Origin: Lentisphaerota bacterium
Lineage (GTDB): Bacteria; Verrucomicrobiota; Lentisphaeria; Victivallales; Victivallaceae
DNA: 64,000 nt
Reading direction: 5' to 3'
NCBI GenBank assembly: GCA_015061815.1
Contig: SUVW01000005.1
Coordinates: 62,001 to 126,000, forward strand
Positions within the stretch are counted from its first letter, which is position 1. Every line of letters begins with the position of its first letter. The notes beneath the pieces were generated by a model. That model worked only from the letters and a program-made list of their open reading frames with translations. It did no database searches and was not told the DNA's origin. This document shows positions 3,346-64,000 of the stretch, piece after piece. The translations under genes were made by a program, and so were the position numbers.

Positions 3346-3742
3346 TATTGTTGACAGAGTGATGGTTGCAGTACTTCCGGTTCGCCGCCGGAATCAAACT
3401 GGCAATTTTCATCAGAAGATTAAAAAGAACTTGAAAAATATTGTTTTTATGATATATTACCCCCTTGTGTTTTAGCGATCAACACAATGAAAGGAGATCA
3501 TAAAATCTTAAAAAAGCAACTGAAATTTTTTAATTGAAGATTAACAGCGATATCTTCAAGCGATGGAAATACGGGAAAACGCCAAAATCTCATTGAACAC
3601 CATCGGCTTGCAAGGTACGTTTGCGTATATGCGGGCGTGCCCTTGTTTTGTGTGGTGTTCAGGTATTGGCGTACCTCTCGTATTCACAATCAGGGGTACG
3701 TCTTTTTTGTACCCTGAAATAACAAAACATGGAGTACAAAAA

Positions 3743-5728
3743 ATGTCAGATGAGATCAAAGAGTGTCCGTTTTGCGGTGAAGAGATAAAAGCGATTGCAA
3801 AAAAGTGTCGTTTTTGCGGTGAAATGCTTGTAGAGAAAGCAGGGAAGCCTGATACTCTACCGCTTAAAGATAAAATTTCTTTCGCAGGAAGGCAAATCGT
3901 TAACAGAATGACCCAATGGATTGACAAAATATCTTCCGGAGATGAAGCAAAAAAGAAAAAAATCAAATGGGCCTTCGGGGGAGGTGCTGTTATTATTCTG
4001 CTTGTCCTCATTATTGCATTGTGTTCCATCGAAACCGTTGAACATGTTGATTTACCGCCAGGCAGACCGGATCATCAGTTGCTCGAATACACTGAAAAGG
4101 GGGATCTGCGGGCTGTAAAGTTTTTGATAGTAAAACGTGAAGCAAAAGTCAATGGTGCTGTATACAAGCATAGCGGAGAAACTGCCTTGCACATTGCTTT
4201 GCGTAATCAATTTAATGACATCGCCGAATATTTGATCAAAAAAGATGCAGATGTCAATGCAAAAGATGATGCACAAAGAACTCCTTTATTCTATCCGTTG
4301 CAAAACAAAGATTACGGGATGATGGAAATATTGCTTGACAATGAGGCCGAAAAAATCATCGAAGCTGTTTTTTATGCAGTTGATATCAATGATGAAAAAT
4401 TACTTGATTTCTTACTGAAAAATGATTTTCCGGTCAATGTCGCTGATAATAACGGGGATACACCTTTGCATACTGCAGCAAGAAAAAACCTGTCACCTGT
4501 GATAGTTGAGTTGCTGTTGAAAAATAAGGCGAGGAGTGATTCGGTAAATAATAGTGGGTATACCCCTCTTTTACTTGCTCTTGAATGCAACAGTTCACCG
4601 GCAATTGTTAAATTGCTTATAGATGGAGGTTCTGATGTAAACATGGCAGCACCCGATGGCAACCGGCCACTGCATTTGGCGGTTGACGAATTTCCGGAAG
4701 GGCGATTCCGTTCGCGTATCAATTCTCCGGAATATACCAGTTTATTGCTGGCGGCCGAGGCAGATGTCAATGCAAAAAACAAATCGGGCAAAACTGCGCT
4801 GCAGCTGGCTGGAAACAGCAACGTAATTAATCAATTACTGCAATCGGAAGCTCTCGTGATCAGAGATGACAACGACAGCAGAATATTTGATTTACTGATT
4901 TTTAAGAGTAACGGAGCATTCGCCGATGCAAAGCGTGTGAAAGCTCTCGTAAAAGCCGGGGCCAATCCCATGTTTTTCAGCCGCAGACATTTGTGTTCCG
5001 CATTAAATATTGCTGCAAGAAACGGCAATAAGGCCGCTGCGTCGGTGATAATTAAGTATTCTGATTTCGGTGTGGATCAGCCTATGCATGATGAAGGGGC
5101 TGCACGGTATATGGTCGATATGCCGGAATTGGTCAAGGCAATGATTGACAAAGGTAAACATCTGAATGATGATGAAATATATGCTTTGCCTCTTGATCTT
5201 GTTAAATATTATTTGCAGAAAAACATCGGCGGCGGTTTGAATTCTGACGAGCACTTTGCTTTGGAGCGAAAAATCGCCGTACAATATAATTTGGAACGCG
5301 GTTCATGGCAACTCCGGGAATTTTTTACTGAAAACGGATGGAATGAATTGATGGCAAATGCGGTGAAAGATCCGGAATCTGCACGTTATTATCGCGATAT
5401 TGTGAAACGCGAACATCGCAAGAAACTGCAGAATTCACCTGAAGCAAAGAACATCGTTAAGCGGAAAACTGTTGTCGCCGGCAGGATATTGCTGCCTTGT
5501 GAGGGTGAATCACCGGAAGAATATGATAAGCGATTCAATATTATCAACGCTCAATATGAAGAGAATGGAAGTTGTATTTTAAATTATTTTGCCAATGGTG
5601 TCAAGGCTATGGTGATCAAACACCGCAAGTTCCAGATCGATCACGGTATGGAGCCTGACGGTATTGAAGTTAAAGATAAAAATGGGAACATCGAAATCTA
5701 TGCCGAAAGAGTAAAGAACTCCCCGTAA
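3743..5728 (+). CDS. Zinc-ribbon / single-TM / ankyrin-repeat protein
   Basis: From ATG 3743: MSDEIKECPFCGEEIKAIAKKCRFCGEML (two CxxC), TM segment WAFGGGAVIILLVLIIALCSI, then several ankyrin-type repeats (GETALHIALRNQFNDIAEYLIKKDADVNAKD, GDTPLHTAARKNLSPVIVELLLKNKA, GYTPLLLALECNSSPAIVKLLIDGGSDVN). Confidence 0.85.
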   Translation: MSDEIKECPFCGEEIKAIAKKCRFCGEMLVEKAGKPDTLPLKDKISFAGRQIVNRMTQWIDKISSGDEAKKKKIKWAFGGGAVIILLVLIIALCSIETVEHVDLPPGRPDHQLLEYTEKGDLRAVKFLIVKREAKVNGAVYKHSGETALHIALRNQFNDIAEYLIKKDADVNAKDDAQRTPLFYPLQNKDYGMMEILLDNEAEKIIEAVFYAVDINDEKLLDFLLKNDFPVNVADNNGDTPLHTAARKNLSPVIVELLLKNKARSDSVNNSGYTPLLLALECNSSPAIVKLLIDGGSDVNMAAPDGNRPLHLAVDEFPEGRFRSRINSPEYTSLLLAAEADVNAKNKSGKTALQLAGNSNVINQLLQSEALVIRDDNDSRIFDLLIFKSNGAFADAKRVKALVKAGANPMFFSRRHLCSALNIAARNGNKAAASVIIKYSDFGVDQPMHDEGAARYMVDMPELVKAMIDKGKHLNDDEIYALPLDLVKYYLQKNIGGGLNSDEHFALERKIAVQYNLERGSWQLREFFTENGWNELMANAVKDPESARYYRDIVKREHRKKLQNSPEAKNIVKRKTVVAGRILLPCEGESPEEYDKRFNIINAQYEENGSCILNYFANGVKAMVIKHRKFQIDHGMEPDGIEVKDKNGNIEIYAERVKNSP

Positions 5729-5823: not shown

Positions 5824-6007
5824 CATTGCATTACCATTATCCGGGTGTATTCTTTGGTGTACTTTTAGTGTACTCATTTTGCTTTGAACAGTCGGAAAAT
5901 AACAGAAAACAAAAAAGAAAAAGTCATTTTCAGGGTACAAAGCATCCTGAAATGTAAAAAAGGTGGTATTACGTTCAAAAAAATCGAAACGGAAAGATAT
6001 TTGAGGA

Positions 6008-6511
6008 AAATGAAAATGGCTCCGGCACTTGGGCTGCCCACGCTTCGCTGCGCACACCGCTTCGCGCTGTCGAACCACCCCTGCGGGGGATTTGGTTATT
6101 TTTTGCTGACACAAAAAATGCAGATTGTTCTCACAATCTGCCGATCCTGCGGTTTGTCGCCATTTTTCATTAAAATGAAAATGGCTCCGGCACCTGGGCT
6201 GCCCACGCTTCGCTGCGCACACCGCTTCGCGCTGTCGAACCACCCTGGCGGGGGATTTGGTTATTTTTTGTTGACACAAAAAATGCAGATTGTTCTCACA
6301 ATCTGCCGATCCTGCGGTTTGTCGCCATTTTTCATTAAAATGAAAATGGCTCCGGCACCTGGGCTGCCCACGCTTCGCTGCGCACACCGCTTCGCGCTGT
6401 CGAACCACCCCTGCGGGGGATTTGGTTATTTTTTGCTGACACAAAAAATGCAGATTGTTCTCACAATCTGCCGATCCTGCGGTTTGTCGCCATTTTTCAT
6501 TAAAATGAAAA
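6008..6511. repeat. 165-bp tandem repeat array (3 units) continuous with the tRNA-Asn 3' end
   Basis: TGGCTCCGGCAC(C/T)TGGGCT recurs at 6017, 6182, 6347 and 6512, an exact 165-bp period; the copy at 6512 is the 3' end of the tRNA gene. Units are nearly identical over their whole length. Confidence 0.95.
6443..6471 (-). terminator. Hairpin terminator downstream of tRNA-Asn; copies also at about 6278-6306 and 6113-6141
   Basis: GCAGATTGTTCTCACAATCTGC (6450-6471) with an A-run on the plus strand (T-run on minus) at 6443-6448; repeated in each 165-bp unit. Confidence 0.75.
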
Positions 6512-6586
6512 TGGCTCCGGCACCTGGGCTCGAACCAGGAACCAAGTGGTTAACAGCCACCTACTCTACCATTGAGCTATGCCGGA
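6512..6586 (-). tRNA. tRNA-Asn(GTT), CCA encoded
   Basis: Minus strand TCCGGCA-TA-GCTC-AATGGTA-GAGT-A-GGTGG-CTGTTAA-CCACT-TGGTT-CCTGG-TTCGAGC-CCAGG-TGCCGGA-G-CCA folds as a full cloverleaf; anticodon GTT. Confidence 0.96.
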
Positions 6587-61471: not shown

Positions 61472-64000
61472 TTATTTATCTTTTGCAGTCAACTCCTGAT
61501 AGCGTTTCATCAAATCAGCAACAATTTCCGGTTCGGTCATGCTTGGAGCATAGCCGTAGGCTTTCATCACCGCTTTATCATTGGCTTGATGGGCCTTGCG
61601 GAGTTCCAGAGGCATGGTGGTTTCATCATAGAGGGCAGCCAAACTGCAATCCGGATGCAATGCCCGTGCGTCCAAAATCGCCTGGGCAGTCTTGCTGATT
61701 TTGTCGGACAAGTCTGACCAGTCTGACCGGTCGGACGACGGCCACGGGAAATTGTTGTAAACGATTGAAGCGGAATAACGATAACTTGTCCCCAAATATC
61801 CACAGGTAAAACGCATCCATGCCATATGTACGGATGACACCAAAAATCCAAAGTGAAAAAGTGTTGCATCAGGTATGGATAAATTTGCATTTCCACATAT
61901 TACATCTGCGGGTTCAAACCCCATTGGAATATAAAGACGTGATCCCCCTGTATGAGCGGGTACTATAATATAGGAAGTTAGCGATTGACGTATTTCCTGA
62001 AATAAACTTGCATGTAAAGCTGAATTTCTTGTTGCCTTTTTACTGCTTGCCATCCTGAAATCATAAACATTTTTTATTCTGTTTTTTATAAAATTTGATT
62101 TATTTATTTCTGCCGGAGATACTCCATTTAGCCATAAACAGAATCGTAATTTATTGTTTATAAACTCATCTGCACCTACAAAACGATGTATATATTTTTC
62201 AATAAAAGGTTCTCTTTCTATTGCTGTATTCTTCTCTTCTTGAGTCAAAAACAAAAAACCTCCATCTGTCGGTTTGCTTCCATACACCATTTCCGGTACA
62301 TCACACAGCGGTTTATTGCGGCTTTCAATAAAAACATCGGGAGCATCGGTCAAATAGGCGTTGATATTACGGACTGGTACAGATTTGTACGGATTTGTAC
62401 GGATAGAAGAACAATTTTCCGTATTTATCCGTACATTTCCGTTCTCATCCGTATTAAAAATCCGCTTGGGCCTGGCATTGTCTGCTGTCGAAAAACCGAT
62501 GATCACACAATGCACATGAGCCTTGATATTCGCCTCGCTGTCCCAGCGGAAAGTGCGGTGGGCAAAATCTATATGTACTCCGAAACGCTCGTACAACGGT
62601 TTCCACACTCCGGCGACCTGCTCGCCTTGCGTAATGCTGTTGGTTGAAACCAATGCAGTTCGGATAGCATTTCCTTGCATCATCTCTGCTGACTTGAAAT
62701 ACCATGCCGCTACATAGTCGATCTTACCGGCAGTTTTGTATGGCTTGCCTTTTTCATCGACATAAATGTTGAGCATATCCGCTTTCTGTTCGGCTGATTG
62801 CAAAGAATATCCTACAAACGGCGGATTGCCCATGATATAGTTGAGTTTTTCTTTGGGGACTACATCGTTCCAGTCGATCCGGAGAGCATTGGCTTCGATG
62901 ATATTGGCGTAAGATTTGAGAGGCAGGAACTCCAAGTCCAAGTCGACGATGTCTTTGGTGGCTTTCATCATCTGGCTTTCGGCGATCCAGAGAGCGGTTT
63001 TGGCTACAGTCACGGCAAAGTCGTTGATTTCAATACCGTAAAACTGCCCGATACTGACTTTTATCACATCGTCAAAGCCCAGTGCGGTCTGGCCTTCGTT
63101 GATCGTTTTGATACACTCGTTTTCCAGTTTACGCAACGAAAGATATGTTTCAGTAAGAAAATTTCCCGAACCGCACGCCGGATCAAGAAAGTTCAAACTG
63201 GCTATCTTGTCCTGAAAAGCAAAAAGTTTTTTGTTGCGGGTGGTAACAGCTTTCAGCGACAGAATTTCTTCCAGTTCCGCTTTCAAATCATCCAGAAACA
63301 GTGGATCGATAACTTTGTGGATGTTTTCGATACTGGTGTAGTGCATCCCTCCGGAGCGGCGGGTTTCCGGGTTGAGGGTGCTTTCAAAGACTGCTCCGAA
63401 GATAGTCGGACTGATTTCCCGCCAGTCAAAGCGGCTGGCTTCCCCTAATAACAACTCTTTGATTTCATTATCAAACTGCGGGATCTCAATATCAGTTTCA
63501 GCAAAAAGTCCACCGTTGACATACGGAAACGCCGCCAGATCATCGTCCAGATACAAAGATTTGCGTTTATCTTGCGGAGTATCCAAAACTTTGAATAAAT
63601 CTATCAATGCCCGCCGGATATCTCTTGCTTCAAACCGGGTAAGATAATCAGAAAAGAGATTTTTAGCTCCTAAAATTCCGGCATCTTCTGCATAAAGACA
63701 GAATACCAGCCGCACGCAGAGCATATTAAGACTTTTGAGCGTACTTTCAGCAGCGGGATCATTGTAATGTTTCTGGATGGCATCGTAGATCTGCCCCACG
63801 ATTTTTCCGGCATCAATGGATAAATCTTTTTCCCGGGCAATGCGTGCTTTGTGCGTATCTGTCAGGAAATTCAAACGGTGATAATCTTTGGGCAAATCAG
63901 CAAGTTTCAGTATTTCCGGCTCATTGTGCGGATGCTCCATGTCGTGAATGTGGAACTCCTGAAAGTTGCAAACCACGATATAACGGGGCTTCTTGGAAAG
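61472..64000 (-). CDS. Class I SAM-dependent DNA (adenine) methyltransferase, MmeI/type IIG-like; 5' end beyond the window
   Basis: LNFLDPACGSGNFLTETYLSLRKLE (motif I), IMGNPPFVGYS (motif IV NPPF), DAPDVFIESRNKPLCDVPEMVYG. The frame stays open to the window edge (SKKPRYIVVCNFQEFHIHD), so the listed GTG start is not the true start. Confidence 0.88.
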   Translation of the reverse strand, partial: LSKKPRYIVVCNFQEFHIHDMEHPHNEPEILKLADLPKDYHRLNFLTDTHKARIAREKDLSIDAGKIVGQIYDAIQKHYNDPAAESTLKSLNMLCVRLVFCLYAEDAGILGAKNLFSDYLTRFEARDIRRALIDLFKVLDTPQDKRKSLYLDDDLAAFPYVNGGLFAETDIEIPQFDNEIKELLLGEASRFDWREISPTIFGAVFESTLNPETRRSGGMHYTSIENIHKVIDPLFLDDLKAELEEILSLKAVTTRNKKLFAFQDKIASLNFLDPACGSGNFLTETYLSLRKLENECIKTINEGQTALGFDDVIKVSIGQFYGIEINDFAVTVAKTALWIAESQMMKATKDIVDLDLEFLPLKSYANIIEANALRIDWNDVVPKEKLNYIMGNPPFVGYSLQSAEQKADMLNIYVDEKGKPYKTAGKIDYVAAWYFKSAEMMQGNAIRTALVSTNSITQGEQVAGVWKPLYERFGVHIDFAHRTFRWDSEANIKAHVHCVIIGFSTADNARPKRIFNTDENGNVRINTENCSSIRTNPYKSVPVRNINAYLTDAPDVFIESRNKPLCDVPEMVYGSKPTDGGFLFLTQEEKNTAIEREPFIEKYIHRFVGADEFINNKLRFCLWLNGVSPAEINKSNFIKNRIKNVYDFRMASSKKATRNSALHASLFQEIRQSLTSYIIVPAHTGGSRLYIPMGFEPADVICGNANLSIPDATLFHFGFLVSSVHMAWMRFTCGYLGTSYRYSASIVYNNFPWPSSDRSDWSDLSDKISKTAQAILDARALHPDCSLAALYDETTMPLELRKAHQANDKAVMKAYGYAPSMTEPEIVADLMKRYQELTAKDK
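61703..61738. repeat. 9-bp x 4 in-frame minisatellite within the methyltransferase gene
   Basis: GTCGGACAA GTCTGACCA GTCTGACCG GTCGGACGA; encodes SDR-SDW-SDL-SDK on the minus strand. Confidence 0.9.
62376..62456. repeat. Period-10 palindromic repeat element inserted in frame in the methyltransferase gene
   Basis: TGTACGGAT at 62386 and 62396; inverted copies TCCGTA at 62418, ATCCGTACA at 62427, ATCCGTA at 62447, around an AGAAGAACAATTT loop. Confidence 0.8.

Follow-up and report, generated by a model that had tools for sequence, protein, structure and literature searches.

The DNA analyzed here, termed the window, is the whole stretch of 64,000 nucleotides that was taken from contig SUVW01000005.1 (assembly GCA_015061815.1) of a gut bacterium of the Lentisphaeria. 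Directly 3' of its tRNA-Asn(GTT) gene, placed on the minus strand by both ARAGORN and Rfam, TRF delineated an array at 6007-6530 with a period of 165 bp, 3.2 copies, 98% matches, 0 indels and a score of 1020. Its features are listed below in the direction of the tRNA gene; R1 is a home-made covariance model of the hairpin module, and its E-values are rough.

6512..6586, minus strand: intact tRNA-Asn(GTT), CCA encoded (ARAGORN; Rfam RF00005, 65.9 bits)
6490..6514, minus strand: AT-rich hairpin CCATTTTCATT / AATGAAAAATGG, pairing the tRNA CCA and the next bases, in every unit (sequence)
6347..6511, minus strand: repeat unit 1, adjoining the tRNA and terminating in a copy of the tRNA-Asn 3' end (TRF, sequence)
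6450..6471, minus strand: terminator-like hairpin of unit 1, GCAGATTGT...ACAATCTGC with a T-run behind it; found again at 6285-6306 and 6120-6141 (sequence)
6403..6427, minus strand: hairpin AACCAAATCCCCCGCAGGGGTGGTT, immediately ahead of module X, unit 1 (sequence)
6361..6404, minus strand: module X (T-loop), unit 1, TTCGAC-hairpin-GTGCGC-AGCGAAGCG-GGGCAGCCC (R1 match G000:C31:68361-68404, E 2e-9)
6347..6365, minus strand: copy of the last 19 bp of tRNA-Asn, unit 1; exact again at 6182-6200, one mismatch at 6017-6035 (sequence)
6182..6346, minus strand: repeat unit 2 (TRF; inter-unit identity 98-100%)
6196..6239, minus strand: module X (T-loop), unit 2 (R1 match)
6017..6181, minus strand: repeat unit 3, distal; its tail retains CCAAG, the residues of the tRNA-Asn allele of other species (TRF, sequence)
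6031..6074, minus strand: module X (T-loop), unit 3 (R1 match)

As described in the initial annotation, the tail of tRNA-Asn recurs at an exact spacing of 165 bp: the 19-bp sequence TGGCTCCGGCACCTGGGCT is exact at 6182 and 6347, and the copy at 6017 reads CACTTGGGCT. Also present in each unit, as had been noted there, are two copies of GCGAAGCG and the hairpin with its T-run in tRNA orientation. Module X of unit 1 splits the T-loop of the tRNA-end copy. In relatives, the hairpin immediately ahead of the module has altered bases and retains its pairing, and the AT-rich hairpin that pairs with the CCA likewise persists with changed bases. Within its own genome the full 165-bp unit occurs at the tRNA-Asn site only, together with one weak partial match on another contig. 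Some 280 bp separate the distal end of the array from the end of a gene for an ankyrin-repeat protein (3563-5728, 721 codons). Further away, at 62368-62453, the window contains short tandem repeats of TACGGATTTG and TTTCCGTACTCATCCGTACA, and repeats of this TACGGA type are found at other loci of the genus as well (L463, L484).

A duplication private to this strain, considered in the initial annotation, was not borne out, as the 165-bp unit used as a DNA query matched 16 of 61 genomes (its own included), nearly all from the same genus. These matches are found behind tRNA-Asn, and behind a tRNA-Tyr gene that closes a Leu-Gly-Tyr cluster there is a related unit. The named public contigs with real matches are Lentisphaerae/Lentisphaeria MAGs (SIG92, RGIG5270). 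With R1, the module was detected in 31 of the 35 genomes of the genus at E<=1, and in 30 of 79 genomes of the family, including two further genera, at E<=0.01. We inspected 104 R1 matches and found a tRNA on the fetched stretch in 82 cases, with the module downstream of the tRNA in 81; by chance about 2 of 104 would be expected near a tRNA (binomial, assuming ~45 tRNAs in 2.5 Mb and meaningful as an order of magnitude only). First copies typically start 110-155 bp past the CCA, with 45 matches at 100-160 bp past the tRNA end, and further tandem copies follow at spacings of 82 to about 220 bp. The remaining 22 matches are without a tRNA, many of them at contig ends. Units were found at Asn, Tyr, Gln, Glu, Ser, Arg, Pro, Leu, Asp and Gly tRNAs and, in another genus, at Lys; the R1 matches at Met and Thr are weak. 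The unit is thus not absent from other tRNA 3' ends, and its presence at about 11 isotypes supports the earlier suggestion of a small repeat family that propagates at such ends. As related units are situated at tRNA ends in the same genome, in other genomes of the genus and in two other genera of the family, the array is not a chance occurrence.

Most of the genomes are draft MAGs in which copy numbers are not reliable, since several arrays reach contig ends. Single units are found in G002, G003 and G017, where copies may have been lost earlier. Behind tRNA-Gly(GCC) of G030 (contig C23, L439) there are at least six copies of an 82-bp type that retain the T-arm and the module and lack the acceptor/CCA part. 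Contig C39 of the window's own genome (L430:32-2146) carries two units of tRNA-Arg(CCG) type about 2 kb apart around an open frame of 563 codons. Contig C60 of G012 (L005 / L099), in the MAG of another species, is near-identical to the array of the window and its flank and is possibly misbinned. The exact pattern GGTTCGACN{4,26}TGCGTGAGC, searched in public genome and viral contigs, proved too loose: nearly all hits were due to chance, the real ones were confined to three Lentisphaeria contigs, and none of the matching viral contigs was recognized as carrying a unit. Matches to GYRTGAGCATCNCNG in G033, G022 and G005 resemble the coding sequence of a prepilin-like N-terminus and were rejected as modules.

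The units measure about 110-200 bp, lie directly 3' of the tRNA gene and share a common layout, a terminator hairpin followed by a partly copied 3' end of the cognate tRNA whose T-loop (TTCGA^A) harbors a hairpin module of 36-70 bp. Read in tRNA sense, the generic order is CCA, T-run, an outer stem around the terminator hairpin, the 5' strand of the T-stem (GGGTT or equivalent), the module, TCGAATCCC, the acceptor 3' strand and CCA, so that in most units the terminator stands between tRNA and module. The alignment of Asn and Tyr units identified a single common module between the halves of the T-loop, GGTTCGA[module]ATCC. In the module, TTCGAC and a variable hairpin are followed by G-Y-G-TGAGC, a second part that has a hairpin in some cases, and GGCA; outside the module the two types have little in common. 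The module occupies the same position in reverse orientation in the units of tRNA-Gln and tRNA-Arg and in some of those of tRNA-Tyr. Since the T-loop sequence TTCGAA is palindromic, either orientation meets the same junction. The Tyr and Lys units, like those of E. coli, have instead a tRNA-end copy in inverted orientation upstream of the module, by which a multi-hairpin structure is closed. Several Asn, Arg and Asp units (L007, L010, L345, L409) have a second palindrome, of the CTTGTCCTCCGGAGC...GGAGG type, inside the acceptor part of the tail copy. An apparent tRNA-Gln copy reaching upstream of the T-loop was dropped, as its CACTTT motif is common to units of other tRNAs.

To our knowledge, the repeats behind the tyrosine tRNA genes of E. 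coli have gone unexplained since the late 1970s, in part because they seemed to be a curiosity of one locus. The initial annotation knew of no named element with the structure of the present array, but these repeats have it. In E. coli K-12, a 178-bp repeat is present in 3.1 copies behind tyrV, with a further copy between tyrT and tyrV; the repeats are represented in Rfam as RtT RNA (RF00391; genes rttR b4425 and tpr b1229), and an ncRNA, RttR/RtT, is annotated over the first unit. In tRNA sense, the E. coli unit has GGGGAAGGAT, an inverted copy of the tRNA end, upstream of GGTTCGAC, which is followed by a hairpin-rich insert and AATCCTTCCCCCACCACCA. As in the Lentisphaeria, the array is tandem and directly 3' of the tRNA, the last 19 bp of the cognate tRNA recur at the end of the unit, the T-loop is interrupted, with the hairpin-rich insert placed between GGTTCGAC and AATCC, and, as in the Tyr and Lys units, the upstream inverted tRNA-end copy closes the unit. 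The sequences differ, however, outside short motifs, most Lentisphaeria units have the module in the other orientation with the terminator ahead of it, and the E. coli copies examined are those at tyrT/tyrV, whereas the Lentisphaeria units occupy about 11 isotypes. The number of RtT copies is variable, with 1-14 BLAST places per genome and a median of 3 in 4713 E. coli genomes. In Salmonella, rtT is listed as a VNTR of 175 bp, of which one of two Paratyphi A strains has a copy less than the other (PMC2658671); apart from this, a search of the open-access literature for rtT/tyrT repeats yielded almost nothing.

A search with RF00391 in seven relatives, including the genome of the window, gave four best scores of 17.8-22 bits against a gathering cut-off of 45 bits, and three of these four matches are located precisely at units of Ser, Tyr and Arg tRNAs. 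The Tyr unit of G012 scored 19.3 bits, likewise below the cut-off, and the array of the window gave no match at E<=5. Like RtT, the Lentisphaeria units lie directly 3' of a tRNA, are often in tandem and have the tRNA 3' end last. As the best RtT matches all remain below the cut-off, even though three of four coincide with units, we describe the latter as similar in build to the tyrT repeats without assigning them to RF00391; this is a likeness of anatomy that does not imply common descent.

A direct comparison of occupied and empty sites was possible for two tRNAs. In G018 the CCA of tRNA-Asn leads straight into TTTTCATTTTAAACGAATTCCCC, and this flank is found in G001 and G012 behind the final tail copy. 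In G028 the CCA of tRNA-Tyr runs into TTTACCTATTCAACCGTCTG and an integrase gene; in G017 and G015 a unit is placed between tRNA-Tyr and the flank equivalent to this integrase leader. At both tRNAs the duplicated block extends from the T-loop through the tRNA end. We consider it likely that the array is the tRNA-Asn member of a genus-wide family of small tRNA-tail repeats that is built like E. coli tyrT (RtT). A site would be founded by an event at the T-loop, an insertion or a duplication, through which the tRNA is rebuilt and its old 3' end is displaced. The intact tRNA is kept and the copy of its 3' end is non-functional. The long identical blocks of tRNA end and unit would then allow recombination to add, remove and homogenize tandem copies, which would explain the three near-identical copies in the window. 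We infer that new sites are founded by insertion, not by step-wise duplication.

The conservation of the hairpins raises the question of whether the units are kept as structured RNAs, with read-through of the tRNA operon giving rise, as in the annotation of E. coli RttR, to a processed trailer whose dose is set by the repeats. When 14 Tyr-type units were fitted to a named four-helix structure, pairing was present in 86% of cells. Both partners have changed in 11 of 26 pairs, which 0 of 500 shuffles reach, and every covariation score falls when the partners are slid. In one helix, changes on both sides affect 7 of 7 pairs. The closing helix, formed by the 5' part of the unit with its tRNA-derived 3' end, is paired in 88% of cells in the Tyr units and is found by folding in the Lys unit, and the module hairpins fold better than shuffled controls in most distinct sequences, with a mean z of -2.5. 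Selection probably maintains the fold, and the unit RNA may have a role. These covarying hairpins, the conservation of the module fold across isotypes and the annotation of RttR/RtT as an ncRNA, also in Rfam, would all fit a structured RNA. Nevertheless, the terminator precedes the module in most units, the tails decay, many tRNAs and several relatives do without a unit, and single-stranded DNA could equally require hairpins, so that the constraint on the fold may act on either RNA or single-stranded DNA. Maintenance as RNA, which would be compatible with the tRNA-tail family, is doubtful.

Duplication and recombination have probably shaped the arrays. A usable tail is present in 79 units, and in 55 of these it best fits the isotype of the neighboring tRNA; overall, the tails have a mean identity of 0.83 to the own tRNA, 0.69 to the best other isotype and 0.47 after shuffling. 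In the other 24 units the tail is too decayed or altered to single out the own tRNA. The Asn tails even track the allele of the tRNA, GCCCAGG tRNAs being followed by GCCC tails and ATCCAAG tRNAs by ATCC tails, and two distal Asn units retain part of the other allele. Read from the sequences, this agreement corresponds to the prediction of concerted evolution between tRNA and array. The identity of Asn units is 0.977 within a genome versus 0.781 between genomes, modules at different anticodons of one isotype in the same genome are 0.89 alike, and modules of different isotypes show a slight difference, with 0.638 in the same genome versus 0.609 in different genomes (permutation p ~0.009). The tRNA tail amplified by recombination, which the initial annotation had envisaged, is supported by this homogenization within genomes. 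An explanation by plain, neutral tandem duplication of the tRNA 3' end and its terminator, with no special element, would draw on the same identity values, on direct repeats of 25-36 bp that favor unequal exchange and on the variable RtT copy number in E. coli and in two Paratyphi A strains (PMC2658671). However, it leaves unexplained how one hairpin module came to lie in the T-loops of the tails of many tRNAs, in both orientations, in many species and in three genera, and it does not account for covarying hairpins. It suits the amplification step and not the origin, and as a full explanation we regard it as unlikely.

The initial annotation had also proposed serial att scars. On this reading, each tail copy would be an old attR of a tyrosine-integrase element and each unit its deleted remains. 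The resemblance to att sites is real, with a direct repeat from within the T-loop to the tRNA end, as in integrase att identity blocks, an intact tRNA that is kept and an old end that is displaced. Moreover, tyrosine integrases of the DUF6538 type are encoded immediately behind tRNA-Tyr and tRNA-Met in members of the genus (L352, L353, L358, L359, L354), each behind a short terminator and several of them intact with 650-700 aa, and displaced tRNA-Tyr ends and truncated integrase genes are found downstream of some Tyr units. Unlike att-bounded elements, however, the units comprise 110-200 bp only, with no integrase gene or remnant of their own, and share one module at about 11 isotypes. The integrase remnants come after the Tyr units and are not part of them, the displaced tRNA ends of the integrase elements themselves (L111 13740, L112 11881) have no module, and the unit stands between tRNA and integrase leader, where a separate later event would have put it. 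A crude motif scan of the window and the array loci found no tyrosine-recombinase signature, and phage records gave no match to the unit. Taken together, serial att scars are very unlikely. In G012, a tRNA-Tyr tail copy and a further, decayed Tyr unit are separated by a 2-kb segment (L112:9850-11881) that contains a hipA-like gene. An artefact of draft assembly, to which the many arrays at contig ends and the possibly misbinned contig C60 of G012 might point, is scarcely conceivable and already refuted for the existence of the array, given the many independent assemblies with species-specific sequences and the same anatomy in the complete genome of E. coli K-12.

Two further types of element were compared with the tRNA-tail repeats. 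REP/BIME sequences and their RAYT share with the units short GC-rich hairpins with a palindromic core, an intergenic location and several copies per genome, but the units are confined to tRNA 3' ends. A RAYT was rejected as the mobilizer, for Y1_Tnp (PF01797) was not found at E<=1e-5 in G000, the genome of the window; it is present in 11 of 35 genomes. Integron attC sites appear not to fit in box order or sequence. Tentatively, the units may exemplify a class of elements, miniature in size, which home to the T-loops of tRNA genes, rebuild the tRNA with a copy of its own 3' end and occur in distant phyla, with E. coli RtT as an isolated member, the Lentisphaeria family as the richest case known and a mobilizer that is neither a tyrosine integrase nor a RAYT.

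With many units per genome and about eleven isotypes, what was an oddity of a single locus in E. coli becomes a widespread kind of tRNA-bound repeat. The occupied and empty sites and the covariation make the founding of sites, the role of the T-loop insert and the action of the hairpins as RNA or DNA accessible to comparison, and they bear on the ways in which insertions at tRNA 3' ends are tolerated and shaped by the tRNA genes themselves.
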